Below, piece by piece: positions 50,785 through 58,650 of a stretch of DNA of 64,000 nt. A model generated the notes under the pieces. That model had not been told where the DNA came from. It worked only from the letters and a program-made list of their open reading frames with translations, and ran no database searches. The stretch is from Fistulifera solaris (taxonomy: Eukaryota; Bacillariophyta; Bacillariophyceae; Naviculales; Stauroneidaceae). Both the position numbers and the translations under genes were made by a program. The first letter of the stretch is position 1. Each line of letters starts with the position of its first letter. The stretch is taken from the NCBI GenBank assembly GCA_030295235.1, contig AP026149.1, positions 682,001-746,000 of the forward strand. The letters run 5' to 3'.

Positions 50785-51599
50785 TTCAAGAGACTATTAC
50801 AGGAAGAGAAAGGTTTTATTACAATCAACGAGAGCAATGCGATCAGGCTTCTCTGGCAATTATTATTTGCGTTGTCGTTCTCGCTCGGCTTGTGTCGTTT
50901 GTTTGACGCGCGGCATGTTTCCTTCGTCGAGATCGCAAGGTGGAGGGAAGCCGCAAAAGAATCGTCTTGGCCGGCGTCTCTCAACGGATAATTTTTTTAC
51001 TGAAAAAAGAATGAATGAAGCATCGGCGCGCTTTCGCGCTTTCCCCATCGCACTACCGTATGACTATCACTAGGAGTGTAGGCGGCGGCAGTTAAGTCAT
51101 GAGTCGTCAGTCATGAGTCAAGATCTAAGATCCATGTTTGCCCAAGATGCTTTCGTTACACTATTTTTCTCCTAATAACGCATTCGAGTTGTGATGAAAA
51201 AAAAACTGTAACACCACCTAAACTTGCAGACGCTTGCGAAAATAGCCAAATAATACGCGGTAGGCTTACGTAGGCAGTTTAGCTTTGCTGTCAACTACGG
51301 AGTACTACGTAATATGCAAGATATACTCTCTAGCACATGACTAGATTTCAGTCACGACACGGGAAATCGCACTGCAAAATAAAATGAACTGACAAGCAAT
51401 ACCGTAGCAATATCAATAGCAGTCCTTCTTCCAATAATTGCTGCTGTTTTCGAATCGTCTGTTTCTTTCGAAACTATTTCTAATGAGAGAAATGTACCGT
51501 TAACCGGGATAACTAAACAAAAAGAGCTTTACGGGTAGTCTTGTTGAGTATTCTTGCCTCACAATTCGCCTCTACGACATCCAGAGCCTTTCCTTCACC
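50785..51599. other. Divergent intergenic region, ligase/FUT8-like
   Basis: Holds two GTCATGAGTC units at 51096-51117 and an imperfect palindrome at 51336-51358 (CATGACTAGATTTCAGTCACG), both of the dispersed type. No gene is supported. Confidence 0.45.
51336..51358. repeat. Dispersed intergenic palindrome, copy
   Basis: Imperfect arms around TGACTAGATTTCAGTCACG, followed by ACAC. Confidence 0.55.
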
Positions 51600-52877
51600 A
51601 TGCGTCGACGTCAACTGCCTTATTTTCTCCTTCAGTTCCTCTTTTTATCTTGTCTTCTTTTCTATTTGCTATCAGTTACGATACTATGGATGCTACAGGA
51701 TGATTCCGCAGCCATTATGCCGAACGAAACGTTTTTCTCGTCATCTTCTCGACACTCCCTAGCAGCACAGCCAGTCTATGTATTCTTATCTAGAGTCCCT
51801 CTTTACACTAATAACAACCTCACAAAGCCATTCTGTGTCGATTGGCATCATAATGTGGATGAATGGTGGTCGCATCATCCTACTTGGGAACTAGCACTGC
51901 AAAATACAACGCATCAATGTTTTCAACCCATACCGAATACACAACAAGCGCAACTTTATCAACAATTGTATCAGTTGCAGCAGCAACCACACCACAATCA
52001 TACAACAACTTGTCGCACGAAAATCATTTCCAATTCGGGTTGGGGCGTCGATTTGTCTTACGTGGTTGATGGCTTGCTCTATGCGTTACATCACGAAATA
52101 CCCGTCTTTCTGAAATGGCAGGGTCCTTGGCAATATGCACCAACCTCGTGCTCATCCCAAGATGCGCGTTGTCTGTTTCTACCCTTTTCCGCTCCGCCCT
52201 GTCGAGAGCAACCACCCGAACAACAAGCACGATACTGGCAAACTCCGTGGTCCGGTTATTCGAATCCACAAACACGATGGGTGTTGCAATATGTAACACG
52301 CGGCCAAACATGGTTGCGGCAACAGGCCATCCAGTGGGTAGACAGTGTATCGTTGCCGGACTCGTGCGATCTGGCAATTCATGTCCGACGGGCCGATGTC
52401 ATTTTGCACGGAGCATTCAGTCGACGATATCACAAACTAAGAGAATACGTGCAAGCCTATCTTGACGCGATGGGCAGCGATCAAACGACACCTCGTCATG
52501 TTCTCATATTGACAGACGACGCCAATGCCATTGGAGAAGCCCTGCAGTATACCCAACGCACCCATTTGCCGTGGCAGTGGTATTACTTTGATCGACCGCG
52601 GTTTCGAGGACCCGAGGGTGGTTGGGAAAATGCCATTCCATCGCAGGATCCGGCTATGGAAGTGGCCATTCTTTACGCATCGTTGCAGTTACTACAACGC
52701 TGTGCGGTATTAGTTCATTCGAAAAGCAATGTGGCCGATTATTTCTTTGCGATTATGCAGCTGGCGGCGGGCGATCATGTTCGACGTGTTAACTTGGATG
52801 CGAATCGGCCACACAATGAAGTTCACAATTCACTCAATGCCGAAACAGTACGATACTCGCGTGCGTTTGATGTGTGA
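51600..52877 (+). CDS. Alpha-1,6-fucosyltransferase-like protein (GT23)
   Basis: Single exon of 425 aa, ATG 51600. Type II topology: a short basic cytoplasmic end (MRRRQ), one N-terminal transmembrane helix (FLLQFLFLSCLLFYLLSVTI), then a lumenal domain with NNNLT, NTTHQ and other glycosylation-type sites. The catalytic region carries HVRRADVILHGAFSRRYHKLREYV, matching the H-x-R-R-x-D donor-binding motif of FUT8, NSGWGVDLSYVVDGL and VHSKSNVADYFFAIMQLA. FUT8 adds core alpha-1,6-fucose to N-glycans in the Golgi; this copy is shorter than animal FUT8 (about 575 aa) and lacks the SH3 domain. It ends 50 bp before the convergent SET-JmjC gene. The exact acceptor is uncertain. Confidence 0.75.
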   Translation: MRRRQLPYFLLQFLFLSCLLFYLLSVTILWMLQDDSAAIMPNETFFSSSSRHSLAAQPVYVFLSRVPLYTNNNLTKPFCVDWHHNVDEWWSHHPTWELALQNTTHQCFQPIPNTQQAQLYQQLYQLQQQPHHNHTTTCRTKIISNSGWGVDLSYVVDGLLYALHHEIPVFLKWQGPWQYAPTSCSSQDARCLFLPFSAPPCREQPPEQQARYWQTPWSGYSNPQTRWVLQYVTRGQTWLRQQAIQWVDSVSLPDSCDLAIHVRRADVILHGAFSRRYHKLREYVQAYLDAMGSDQTTPRHVLILTDDANAIGEALQYTQRTHLPWQWYYFDRPRFRGPEGGWENAIPSQDPAMEVAILYASLQLLQRCAVLVHSKSNVADYFFAIMQLAAGDHVRRVNLDANRPHNEVHNSLNAETVRYSRAFDV

Positions 52878-52927: not shown

Positions 52928-55723
52928 TTAAAACCAATAATTAACACTGATCGAGGGCGTCAACGACCGGACGTAATGCCACATACGCGCGGGAATGTAC
53001 AATCCATCTCCTGGATGCAAAACCACCTCAGTATACGATGCCGTTTGGGCTAACGGATGTTGTTGCCAGTCTTCGTTTTCGCAATGCAAAGCGCTCATAT
53101 TGCCTTGTGCCGCCGTACCGCGCGTTGTCTTGGAGATGACGTACAGCTTTGCCTGTTCCTCGGCTGGATACAGTCGCACGTACTTCACCCCAACCACTTG
53201 TACCAACCAATTGTCGTAGCTGTCATAATGAAGTGGCGTACGGGTACCGGCACTGCCGAGCCACACATTCGTGTGCGTCGGTCCCTGTGTTCCACATAAA
53301 GGAGGACTCACATCGACAAATTCTTTCAAGGCGGGAATCTGTTCCAGCAAAGGGTGCTGCGCCAAATAAATAGTAGAAGCGCTGTATTGCTGGGCCTCTT
53401 GCAAACTCCAAACTGGATTTTCGACTTTCTCATCGGCAGCTCGAATCGCATGTATCAAATTTCGTAAGGAGAGAATTTCTTCCCGCATGCGTCCACAGTC
53501 TTCAGTTGCAAGCATCGAACCCCGTTCCACAGGAATTTGTCTGTGTCCATGAATTTGGCCAAAGACTCCTTCCAAGTCATGCCAAGCAGTGACGGCGGTC
53601 CAATCACAGGCGAACTTGCGCAATACCAAGGGACGCGAGACTAGGACATGATTCGTCGAAAATGTACGGTAAAAAGGTGGTTCATGGAGTTCGTCAGGTA
53701 GAGGATATTGAATTGGATGCGACAAACCGTGCTGTTCGATCCGTTGTTTCACAGTGGGGTCCGCATAGTTGGGAAGGAGAATATTACAAGGAAGCATAAC
53801 AGGTAATTCTGAAATTGAGTAAGCGTGATGCTCGACGTACGCCATAAATCCGGTCAAGTGAGGATCGTTCCTCACGGGCAAGCCTAGAACCATGCCCCGA
53901 TCTAAAAAGTCCAATGCATCGAGAAAACACCATCGATGAGCTAATCCCAAGGCTGCGACGACCACAGCACACCAATAAGCATTCCGATAAGCTTCATTAG
54001 GCCATGCATTTGTAGACTCCAACGACGAATACAAGATAGATACTAAATCACTTCCCAACAACTCCATGAGAGCGAAATCCTTCTGTTCGATTCCTTGCAC
54101 GCATTTTTGAAACAGTGTCACAAGCTCAATTGGTAGCAAGCCACTATGTTTTTGATCGTGGACCCAAATGTTAACAAAGCTCGATGCTTTGGCAAATAAC
54201 GGGAGCGGTGTAGCGCCATACACTACGTGATTACGGATAGAGTCGAGGCGTTCGAGACAAGCTTGTAGCTTTTGTTCTGAGTCTTCCTCATCAGTGTCAG
54301 CTGGCGTCTGTATATCATTATCGTCTTCCTCATCATCTCCGTCTTGTCCAAACAAGTCACCCTTGTCGTCGTTGTCCTCTCGGGCTGAAAATTTTGATTC
54401 TTCACCTTCTTGTTCTTTGGTACACTTCGAGCACGTACAGACAAATCCGTAATTGACCAGCGCTTGCTGACGTTCTTCACATGATTTGTTTGAATGTTCA
54501 ATATAAGATATGGTCAATTCTTCGCCTTCTTGAATATCTTTGATAGCCAGTGCAAATATTGTGAGCGGTCGCTGCCACGACGGATTGCTGTGGTAAACAA
54601 GGAGTACATTGGGATCGCACGAATGATTCATTTTGCAGGCCGTCGCGTACATTGCCGTCCCATCGAGAGGAGGGAAAATCTGATCCAAATCATCCCCTTC
54701 TGGCGCGGTCATGGAAGGTGCGTCGTCTGAAGGCGTTTCAGTGGCTACGTCTGTGACCATGCCGTCTTCTCTAATATATAATTCCGAAAGAAACTTGGCA
54801 ATCTCATCCACGGAATAATCCCAGTCTCTGTCAATCATAGCTAATTTGGCAGTAACCTCTTGCTCGTCATCTTCGTCCGCGCAATCGGTGTCACAATCAT
54901 CGCCGCCGATGAACCCGGCTTCTGCAAGGCATTGCACTATATTCGAATGATACATTTCTCGAAAATCTCGATCAAAGACCTCCCGACAAAGCGGATGACG
55001 CTGTCTGACACCAATGGCATTCTGTTCACACGCTCCTACGCGTTTGGCAATGTCTAACGCTGTAATCAGAGGAATCGTATGATTGTGTTCCGTCATCTGC
55101 AAGACTTGATTCAACAAATCGGCAGCGTCTTGACACAGATTTCGGATCGATTGATTCAAAGTGGCTGTTTCGGCAAAAGCCCCTGGTTGATGTTTCAATT
55201 CGAGAGTCGCGACTTCCCACCATGGTTTCATGCAGAAATCGTTCCACTTGGATTCTGTGCGTTCCCCTGATGATATCTGATGATGTTCTAAGATCCACCA
55301 CTGTGCAATCAACAAGAGAATCTCGTTGCTTTCGACGGCTAGTTGTTTAAATAACACCAAAGGATGTTCTTCATCATCGGCTATATTCCCTGTACACAAA
55401 AAGCGATGATGCATTCGCCAAGCAGCGTCTTCACAATCTTTGTTGCAATAGACGTAGCCACACTTTTGCCGACAAGATGCAATTATGGTTTTGCAAGCAG
55501 CTAACGACTTGGAAGGAAAGCGATGCTGCATAGCGTCGGCAGCATTACCCACAAAGCCATGACACGAATGACAGACCCACGCTTGCTGCGTATTCAATCC
55601 TAAACTCTGCTGAAAGAGCATCGGACGTTCACAAAAGATCAAATTATGACGAGACAAATCATATCGAGCTCGTAAATGTCGACCTTGTTGTTCGTTGCAA
55701 CAAATATCATACAGAGTGGTCAT
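52928..55723 (-). CDS. SMYD-type SET methyltransferase fused to JMJD5-type JmjC
   Basis: Uninterrupted 931-aa frame. The N-terminal half is a SMYD-like SET protein: a SET start (EQQGRHLRARYDLS), a MYND-type zinc finger (CGYVYCNKDCEDAAWRMHHRFLC), then the SET core NHSCDPNVLLVYHS, EGEELTISYIEHS and a post-SET VCTCSKCTKEQ. An acidic linker (DDEEDDNDIQT) leads to a TPR-like helical part. The C-terminal third is a JmjC oxygenase of JMJD5 type: RPLVLRKFACDWTAVTAWHD, GHRQIPVERGS, PLHYDSYDNWLVQVVG with the HxD iron pair, and LHPGDGLYIPARMWHYVRSL with the distal His, ending SINYWF-like VNYWF. This order is that of a lysine methyltransferase joined to a 2-oxoglutarate oxygenase. I know of no standard annotation for this fusion; domain calls are strong, the joint function is inference. 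Confidence 0.85.
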   Translation of the reverse strand: MTTLYDICCNEQQGRHLRARYDLSRHNLIFCERPMLFQQSLGLNTQQAWVCHSCHGFVGNAADAMQHRFPSKSLAACKTIIASCRQKCGYVYCNKDCEDAAWRMHHRFLCTGNIADDEEHPLVLFKQLAVESNEILLLIAQWWILEHHQISSGERTESKWNDFCMKPWWEVATLELKHQPGAFAETATLNQSIRNLCQDAADLLNQVLQMTEHNHTIPLITALDIAKRVGACEQNAIGVRQRHPLCREVFDRDFREMYHSNIVQCLAEAGFIGGDDCDTDCADEDDEQEVTAKLAMIDRDWDYSVDEIAKFLSELYIREDGMVTDVATETPSDDAPSMTAPEGDDLDQIFPPLDGTAMYATACKMNHSCDPNVLLVYHSNPSWQRPLTIFALAIKDIQEGEELTISYIEHSNKSCEERQQALVNYGFVCTCSKCTKEQEGEESKFSAREDNDDKGDLFGQDGDDEEDDNDIQTPADTDEEDSEQKLQACLERLDSIRNHVVYGATPLPLFAKASSFVNIWVHDQKHSGLLPIELVTLFQKCVQGIEQKDFALMELLGSDLVSILYSSLESTNAWPNEAYRNAYWCAVVVAALGLAHRWCFLDALDFLDRGMVLGLPVRNDPHLTGFMAYVEHHAYSISELPVMLPCNILLPNYADPTVKQRIEQHGLSHPIQYPLPDELHEPPFYRTFSTNHVLVSRPLVLRKFACDWTAVTAWHDLEGVFGQIHGHRQIPVERGSMLATEDCGRMREEILSLRNLIHAIRAADEKVENPVWSLQEAQQYSASTIYLAQHPLLEQIPALKEFVDVSPPLCGTQGPTHTNVWLGSAGTRTPLHYDSYDNWLVQVVGVKYVRLYPAEEQAKLYVISKTTRGTAAQGNMSALHCENEDWQQHPLAQTASYTEVVLHPGDGLYIPARMWHYVRSLTPSISVNYWF

Positions 55724-56562: not shown

Positions 56563-58650
56563 TCACTGACATAAAAGATGAGATTCACGGGGTCGAATTG
56601 GATGGCAAAGTTCTAATCCTACGTCCGAATAGGAGGGAATGCTGGGACGGCGTTGGGGTTTGCGGGGCGACACATCCGTCACCGTTTCTATCAAAGTTTT
56701 GGCGGCCTCACGTGCGTTTTGTAATTTTCGAACCATGGTTGTCATCTCAAAATCGGTAACTGGAGGTTCCGCAAAACTGATGGTCTTTTCCACTTTGGGC
56801 TTTTTCTTCTTCTTTGTGCTTCTTCTTCTTATCCTTTTTCGACTTTTTGTCCTTTTTGGATGACGAACTGCTTTTTCTTTTCAGTGACTTTTTCTCCTTT
56901 TCTTCTTTCGACGATTCTTTCTTCTTTTCCTTATCTTCCTTATTCTTCTTCTCCGCCTTTTCTTCGTCTTTAATCTTCTTGTCCTTCTTACCCTTCCCCG
57001 CCTTTTCTTCTTCTTTAATCTTCTTGTCCTTCTTATCCTTCTCCGCCTTTTCTTCTTCTTTAATCTTCTTGTCCTTCTTATCCTTCTTCGACTTGTCTTT
57101 ATCTTTCTTGCTGTGCTTTCGCTCCACCTTCTTCGTATCACGCGACTCTTTCGAATCATTGGAACTACTACTGCTGCTGAGGCCAATAGGGACGCGTTTG
57201 ATGGAAGGGAGTCGGCGTAGCGTAGGTAAGTCGAAAAGCGGCAAATCATCATATTTAGGAAGAAGTAACTCGGGAAACGGTCTTCTTCGATGTCTTCGGT
57301 TTTTGATTCGCCAATCATTCCGTCATCGCCACAGTCCGGGGCATCACTTGTGGGAGGGAGAGACCATGTGAAATGCAAACCTTGCGGACGGTTGCAGATC
57401 CTCACAGGTTCCGGCTTTTCTTCCACCACGGTACGCGACAAGCTTTTGTGCAGTTGATCTTGCAGACGACCGAACCGAATCTTGGGTTTTGATACCTGGA
57501 GCGGTACCAATGGAGCCGATGACCGCGCTACTTCCTTTCGAACGGTTTCGGAAAAGGTAGTTGGGAATTCCATGTCCATGGGTACTTCGAGACTCTTGCA
57601 CTTGTACTCTTGCTTGCAAGCAGCAATTAGCTTGGCGTACTTTTCCGATTGCATGTAATCTTCTGGGAGGTCTACCGCAACATAAACACTTCGAACCACA
57701 GATCGTCGTCGACTCAGTTGTTCGAGTGGGAGGCCAGCGGAAGTCATGGACGATGGTGTATGTACCCGGACAACAGTATCTTCTTTATCTGCTGTCTTGT
57801 CTTTTCCACTTGAAACTTGAATCGTTGCCCGTCTGCGTTCAAGAGCATCGTTTTCAAGCCCTTCTTTGTATGCGTTCGCAGCCATTTTCATCTTCTGCTC
57901 CTTTGCTTGTTGCAGGAAATGCGCTCGATGCGACTTCTTTACTTTGTCACGCAATGATCCAAGTAGCCCTAGTGACTTTCCCGTTTTCTTTTGAAACATA
58001 TCGAACATTTCATCTACGTCTTCAACTTTTGCTTCGACATCGATTTCGCTCGCGACGGTTTTCTCCTCTCTAGATCGCTTTTTCTGTCCAAATCTGCCTC
58101 CGACTTTGGAGACAAGTTTCTTTGGATATTGCAGGCTCGTTGTGCATGTTTTCATCATTTCAAAGAGTCGCGCTTTGGTCTTGATATAATTGGTATTGTT
58201 TCTCTTGGAAGATGAGTCAGAGATCGACTTTTGTGGAGAGTTTCTTTGTGTAGACTCAAAAATGCTGACTCGATCTTGAATGGAACTTCTCATCAATTGA
58301 CGAGACGAGCGACGGATCGTGTTAGGCCTCCTGTGGACGTCGTCTTCTTCGGTATCACTATCGTCGCAGATTTCGATAAGTTCTTCATTTTCTTCGGCTG
58401 ACACGGACATTGAAATCGCGAGCCGCGATCGCTCTTGCGAAGACGATTCAAAGAAGGATGTTCGCTGTCTAACCAATGGAGAGAGACGAGGCGAAAGACT
58501 TTTTCGCTCCATCGAGGAGTCATCATTGTAATTGTACGTAAGGGTTTGCTCACTTGTTTTACCTAGCAGTACTGGTGCAGTTTCCTGCCCAGCCTTGTTT
58601 GTGTGTAATGGACGAGACACTGGACTGAAAGGGCTTTCCGATGAGCACAT
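56563..58650 (-). CDS. Unrecognised Lys-rich nuclear protein
   Basis: About 695 aa from ATG 58650, after two frame slips. The first 420 residues are charged and Ser-rich with Arg-Arg-Ser sites (TIRRSSRQLM, LSRRRSVVRSV), an acidic stretch (ELIEICDDSDTEEDD) and short helical parts. Then comes a hydrophobic-poor segment (PLFDLPTLRRLPSIKRVP) and a long Lys/Glu coil with three perfect-frame repeats of KKDKKIKEEEKAEKD type (see repeat entry). The C-terminus (VEKTISFAEPPVTDFEMTTM, KLQNAREAAKTLIETV, SPRKPQRRPSIPSY) is better in the frame ending at 56563. Slips lie near 57272-57274 and 56797-56805; without them the frame runs through poly-Arg, an unlikely reading. No catalytic motif is seen; nuclear localisation is inferred. 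Confidence 0.6.
56955..57089 (-). repeat. 45-bp tandem repeat, three copies, coding
   Basis: Units at 56955-56999, 57000-57044 and 57045-57089 each encode 15 residues (pattern EKDKKDKKIKEEEKA). In-frame length keeps the coil open when copy number changes. Confidence 0.9.

Follow-up and report, generated by a model that had tools for sequence, protein, structure and literature searches.

A SMYD-type SET domain and a JMJD5-type JmjC domain joined in one open frame of the diatom Fistulifera solaris

Introduction

Among described proteins, the one closest in domain architecture to the diatom protein analysed here is the Phaeodactylum tricornutum gene model bd1647, which is listed under both the SMYD and the SET+JmjC categories and for which transcripts with both domains are stated to have been recovered by PCR on cDNA, with the data not shown (Maumus et al., 2011; PMC3145265). 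The SET+JmjC row of that listing reads "not found" for T. pseudonana and E. siliculosus, and a Neurospora protein with the opposite domain order is mentioned in the same paper (PMC3145265). The SET-then-JmjC architecture is not new, as it has already been reported in this one diatom. Both domains also lie on one chain in the fungal JmjC-SET proteins, which differ in carrying the two in the reverse order and are reported only from filamentous fungi in PMC2474616. Their SET domain is described as possibly related to SET3/4 and as having Arg substitutions at catalytically relevant sequences (PMC2474616).

The human enzymes to which the two halves can be compared stand alone. SMYD5, whose special features are a 30-residue insertion in the MYND finger and a C-terminal poly-Glu tract (PMC13362160), trimethylates RPL40 at K22 and showed no activity towards the histone substrates that this study tried (PMC11369092), whereas H3K36me3 activity has been reported elsewhere (PMC9184575), so that its activity on histones is disputed. 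Human JMJD5 catalyses the C-3 hydroxylation of arginine in an RPS6 (Arg137) peptide and in an RCCD1 peptide, and did not demethylate the histone H3 peptides tested (PMC5862942). In the following, the open frame of F. solaris is compared with these proteins.

One open frame across the SET-JmjC junction

The window, that is, the whole stretch of 64,000 nucleotides that was analysed (G+C 45.5%), contains on its reverse strand a frame that begins with an ATG at 55723 and closes with a TAA ending at 52928. Its translation covers 931 codons with no internal stop, while the remaining two coding-strand frames across 55723-52928 hold 42 and 47 stops. In the 931-residue protein, Pfam places a SET domain at residues 362-407 (E 4.8e-10) and a Cupin_8 domain at residues 687-931 (E 8.6e-41), and among solved structures the nearest in sequence are SMYD3 for residues 355-439 (E 8.7e-9) and human JMJD5 for residues 655-931 (E 5.5e-32). 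The initial annotation, made from the letters of this DNA and the translations of its open frames, had described a single 931-residue frame joining a SMYD-type SET domain to a JMJD5-type JmjC domain, and the frame, the Pfam matches and the solved structures bear this out. Of the motifs that it had pointed to, NHSCDPN at 366-372, EELTISY at 401-407, C429/C431/C434, and H832, D834 and H916 are likewise in place. The layout is given in Table 1.

Table 1. Features of the fusion gene, with positions in the window and the basis of each assignment.
Feature	Position	Strand	Basis
Whole open frame, 931 aa and stop	52928..55723	-	Uninterrupted ORF
S-sequence of the split SET domain, residues 1-50; GxG motif is G14-R15-H16	55574..55723	-	Alignment to SMYD3 and a provisional SMYD5 sequence
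MYND-like zinc finger, residues 51-110; 29 residues between first and second Cys pairs	55394..55573	-	Comparison with SMYD3 and a provisional SMYD5 sequence; no Pfam zf-MYND match
SET-I region, residues 111-354	54662..55393	-	Residues 126-354 without significant match to SMYD3 or SMYD5
SET core (N366, H367, Y407) and post-SET (C429, C431, C434), residues 355-436	54416..54661	-	Pfam, structure matches, alignment
Acidic linker, residues 437-480; composition like the acidic C-terminal tail of SMYD5	54284..54415	-	D/E count; coding bias +0.456 over residues 441-480
Predicted-helical region, residues 481-654, perhaps a JMJD5 N-terminal domain	53762..54283	-	Low-confidence model, alignments
JMJD5-type JmjC/Cupin_8 domain, residues 655-931; Fe ligands H832, D834, H916; 2OG-site Y786, T829, N838, K847	52931..53761	-	Pfam, structure matches, alignment

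For the region between the two halves, codon usage was trained on residues 1-440 and 691-931 and then applied to residues 441-690. There the reading frame has a coding bias of +0.176 bits per codon, compared with -0.336 and -0.514 in the remaining same-strand frames and -0.415, -0.382 and -0.229 in the three opposite-strand frames, and two control stretches outside the gene are negative in every frame of the coding strand. The gene is an intron-free open frame predicted to encode one chain across the SET-JmjC junction. A scan limited to donors of the form GTRAG finds only two inside the frame, at codons 617 and 805, the second of which falls within the JmjC domain and the first of which sits where the coding bias is mildly positive (+0.088); an intron spliced in frame would in any case leave the fusion intact.

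These results bear on an alternative in which two adjacent genes have been joined by an assembly or sequencing error, or in which transcription starts anew between the two halves. The acidic character of the linker would fit such a break, as would residues 481-520, whose in-frame bias is barely positive (+0.009), but the frame is open from end to end and all six sub-stretches of the linker, some of which overlap, are positive in the reading frame and negative in the other two same-strand frames. Together with the same architecture in P. tricornutum and its stated cDNA PCR support (PMC3145265), this makes two genes or a second start highly improbable.

The methyltransferase half

In the alignment, the SET core has the SMYD features N366, H367 and C369 as well as the predicted catalytic tyrosine Y407, which is equivalent to SMYD3 Y239, a residue whose replacement by Phe abolishes the activity of SMYD3 (PMC4307310). 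The post-SET residues C429, C431 and C434 align with SMYD3 C261, C263 and C266. The GxG motif, highly conserved among SET domains and contacting the cofactor at its middle residue (PMC6054832), is broken in this protein, where His replaces the second glycine. The half is therefore labelled SMYD-type and its activity is only predicted.

The MYND zinc finger named in the initial annotation has become less secure, since Pfam zf-MYND gives no match up to E 1 with the whole protein and none up to E 10 with residues 1-120, although all eight ligand positions can be filled from the sequence, with irregular spacing (C51, C54, C84, C88, C93, C97, H105 or H106, and C110), and the N-terminus matches SMYD5. 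The ligand pattern, which was composed after viewing the sequence, occurs in none of 200000 shuffles.

Comparisons with human SMYD5 used a provisional reference sequence, which agrees with PMC13362160 in length, at H316 and Y351, and by counting at Y372, and disagrees with the C317 printed there. Residues 1-125 align to this sequence with a score of 106 (z 13.2), which none of 1000 shuffles reaches, versus a score of 49 (z 3.6) for SMYD3, reached by 7 of 1000 shuffles and by 9 of 2000 in another run; as a control, the alignment of the same residues to JMJD5 scores below the shuffle mean. When phmmer was run without filters and with the search space set to 177635, the provisional SMYD5 was matched at E 1.2e-13 with two domains and SMYD3 at E 3.9e-9 with one passing domain, part of the SMYD5 score being due to composition because its second domain extends into the acidic tract. 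The insertion in the MYND finger comprises 29 residues between C54 and C84, compared with 9 in SMYD3 and 37 in the provisional SMYD5, and 23 of the 47 residues at 437-483, after the post-SET, are Asp or Glu, in an internal tract of mixed composition rather than a terminal poly-Glu one. Judged by these alignments to a provisional SMYD5 sequence, the N-terminal part resembles SMYD5 better than SMYD3, which is a new point of this analysis.

Several results stand against the SMYD5 assignment. The SET core alone does not discriminate between the two relatives and scores higher against SMYD3 (140) than against SMYD5 (119), residues 126-354 match neither the provisional SMYD5 nor SMYD3 (scores reached by 649 and 93 of 1000 shuffles, respectively), and masking Cys and His in the N-terminus shrinks the advantage of SMYD5 (1 of 2000 shuffles, versus 13 of 2000 for SMYD3). 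The protein shares with human SMYD5 a split SET domain with a putative MYND finger, a long MYND insertion, an acidic tract past the post-SET and the catalytic Tyr. Human SMYD5 differs from it as a stand-alone protein of 418 aa that lacks an oxygenase domain, ends in its acidic tract, keeps the GxG motif intact (GKG in the provisional sequence) and has a longer MYND insertion.

The oxygenase half

The iron ligands of the JmjC domain are kept, with JMJD5 H321, D323 and H400 corresponding to H832, D834 and H916 in the alignment, where D323 and H400 are residues that we take to be iron ligands. JMJD5 Tyr272, Asn327 and Lys336, presumably residues of the 2OG site, correspond to Y786, N838 and K847. 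Ser318, the third polar residue at the 2OG carboxylate of JMJD5 (PMC5862942), is conservatively replaced by T829. Further JMJD5 residues named beside H321 in that study (PMC5862942), W310, L329, V402 and E238, have conserved equivalents, among them W821 for W310 and E733 for E238. JMJD5 Tyr243 aligns with Leu738, so that the substrate-residue set Glu238/Tyr243/Trp310 is incomplete, and this tyrosine is essential in human JMJD5, where the Y243A variant is inactive (PMC5862942). The half is therefore called JMJD5-type and arginine hydroxylation is regarded as putative. Human JMJD5/KDM8 is alike in its JmjC domain with HxD...H, in the residues matched at Lys336 and Asn327 and in ending at or beside the C-terminus; it differs in standing alone, in having Tyr243 and Ser318 where Leu and Thr are found here, and in an N-terminal domain that is unconfirmed in this protein.

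The substitutions GRH for GxG and Leu738 for Tyr243 are points against two working enzymes, as each could weaken the activity of its half. One half might then be catalytically dead and assist the other as a scaffold or through binding, an explanation favoured by the position of GRH in the cofactor-binding S-sequence and by two changes in the JMJD5 pocket, where Leu stands in place of Tyr243 and Thr in place of Ser318. It is nevertheless somewhat unlikely, since the SET half retains Y407, the NHSC motif and all three aligned cysteines of the post-SET and since, among the iron and 2OG residues checked in the JmjC domain, only Ser318 differs, and that conservatively.

The region between the halves

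Single-sequence structure prediction of the full protein gave a mean pLDDT of 38, and residues 478-660 were modelled as helical with a mean pLDDT of 61, which is of low confidence. A fold search with this weak model returned no PDB match at E <= 0.001 and 366 at E up to 10, the best being SMYD2 at E 0.48, and since the search was not significant, the helical model cannot choose between a SMYD C-terminal domain and a JMJD5 N-terminal domain. Residues 475-690 align in order with JMJD5 1-192 at a level reached by 10 of 2000 shuffles, a signal that stems in part from residues 655-690 adjoining the JmjC domain. Residues 475-654 by themselves do no better than chance against JMJD5 1-160, where 404 of 2000 shuffles reach the score, or against the C-terminal domain of SMYD3, where 360 of 2000 do; the lack of such a TPR-like domain is a mark of the SMYD5 class. 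The Pfam model ARM_KDM8_N has no match in this protein and matches a provisional human JMJD5 sequence at 6.9e-12.

Relatives of the fusion

By its description, P. tricornutum bd1647 is alike in its SET-JmjC order and its SMYD listing, and the F. solaris protein likewise has a SET domain of SMYD type followed by JmjC; it differs in that neither SMYD5 nor JMJD5 is named for bd1647 in the available text (PMC3145265). Among the matches listed from the open-licence literature, no later work was recognised as dealing with this diatom protein, and none describes it as a SMYD5-JMJD5 fusion, a result that argues only weakly for absence. A relationship to the fungal JmjC-SET proteins was considered and set aside because of their reversed order and the placement of their SET domain near SET3/4 (PMC2474616).

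When viral contigs were scanned with the complete protein, with either half separately or with a two-row JmjC alignment, no relatives were found, and a two-row SET-core alignment matched 19 loci of the viral collection (L002-L020), which encode segments resembling the SET core near NHSC and the catalytic Tyr. Against genome contigs, an alignment of the JmjC part found a single relative, which lies in a record of Komarekiella atlantica and has 26% identity in the best segment. In the viral and prokaryotic collections no related locus carrying the fusion was found, and as these collections are viral or prokaryotic, the search says nothing on other diatoms.

Proposed function

The gene may encode a bifunctional protein modifier in which a SMYD5-like lysine methyltransferase is followed by an acidic linker and a JMJD5-like Fe(II)/2-oxoglutarate oxygenase, which may carry a helical N-terminal domain of its own. 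Both halves would be active, and the oxygenase would hydroxylate an arginine, like human JMJD5, rather than demethylate. To judge from the relatives, the substrates may lie in the translation machinery (compare RPL40 K22 for SMYD5 and the RPS6 Arg137 peptide for JMJD5), and the fusion would place two modifications of ribosomal proteins side by side. Proteins whose genes are naturally fused often belong to one pathway. What can be read from the sequence is the joined frame, the coding bias through the linker, the SET catalytic Tyr, the JmjC iron ligands and most of the co-substrate residues; a SMYD5-like and JMJD5-like double modifier of the translation machinery, taken as a whole, is proposed tentatively, with a probability somewhat short of even.

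A different role for the same two domains was raised as a possibility for the P. tricornutum protein, namely a histone writer and eraser on one chain, whose SET domain methylates a histone lysine and whose JmjC domain demethylates either that residue or a different one (Maumus et al., 2011; PMC3145265). The reported H3K36me3 activity of SMYD5 would agree with it (PMC9184575); this activity and the hydroxylation of the RCCD1 peptide by JMJD5 (PMC5862942) both speak against the ribosomal reading. However, the JmjC half is JMJD5-type, human JMJD5 was without demethylation of the H3 peptides tested (PMC5862942), and the histone substrates tried in PMC11369092 were not methylated by SMYD5, which leaves the writer and eraser improbable. 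The initial annotation, which had suggested that methylation is coupled to hydroxylation or demethylation of one target, holds as regards the fusion and its SMYD-type and JMJD5-type assignment, and its demethylation branch is, given the JMJD5-type JmjC half, weakly supported (PMC5862942). Because both relatives have ribosomal-protein substrates, a ribosome-directed double modifier seems more probable than a writer and eraser of histone marks.

A stronger form of the ribosomal reading, in which a whole SMYD5, acidic tail included, and a complete JMJD5 have merged into a single modifier of ribosomes, with RPL40 as its methylation target and a ribosomal-protein arginine as its site of hydroxylation, is unlikely. 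If it were true, two enzymes first described as histone modifiers would share a role in translation. If the two halves are correctly assigned to SMYD5 and JMJD5, the fusion would bear on two disputes, those over histones or the translation machinery as the targets of SMYD5 and of JMJD5. With the architecture already described, what is new here is the SMYD5-like N-terminus and a JMJD5-type half in which the iron ligands are kept but Tyr243 is Leu.

Neighbouring genes

The initial annotation had also taken frame slips in neighbouring genes that it did not specify, set against the clean fusion frame, as an argument against an artefact. The open frame itself is clean, but this argument is weakened because both of the junctions examined resemble GT-AG introns. 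One is a frame break in an ATP-dependent DNA ligase gene at about 49263-49176 on the minus strand, and the other lies at about 15121-15067, likewise on the minus strand, in an ORF that extends a neighbouring one, which has a VPS13_VAB match.

Convergent to the fusion gene, an open frame at 51513-52877 on the plus strand ends 50 bases from its stop and has a weak match, below the cutoff, to a FUT8-type fucosyltransferase. At 56937-57106 there is a tandem repeat with a 45-base unit in 3.8 copies, where overlapping frames on the minus strand encode repeats rich in Lys/Glu/Asp or in Arg.
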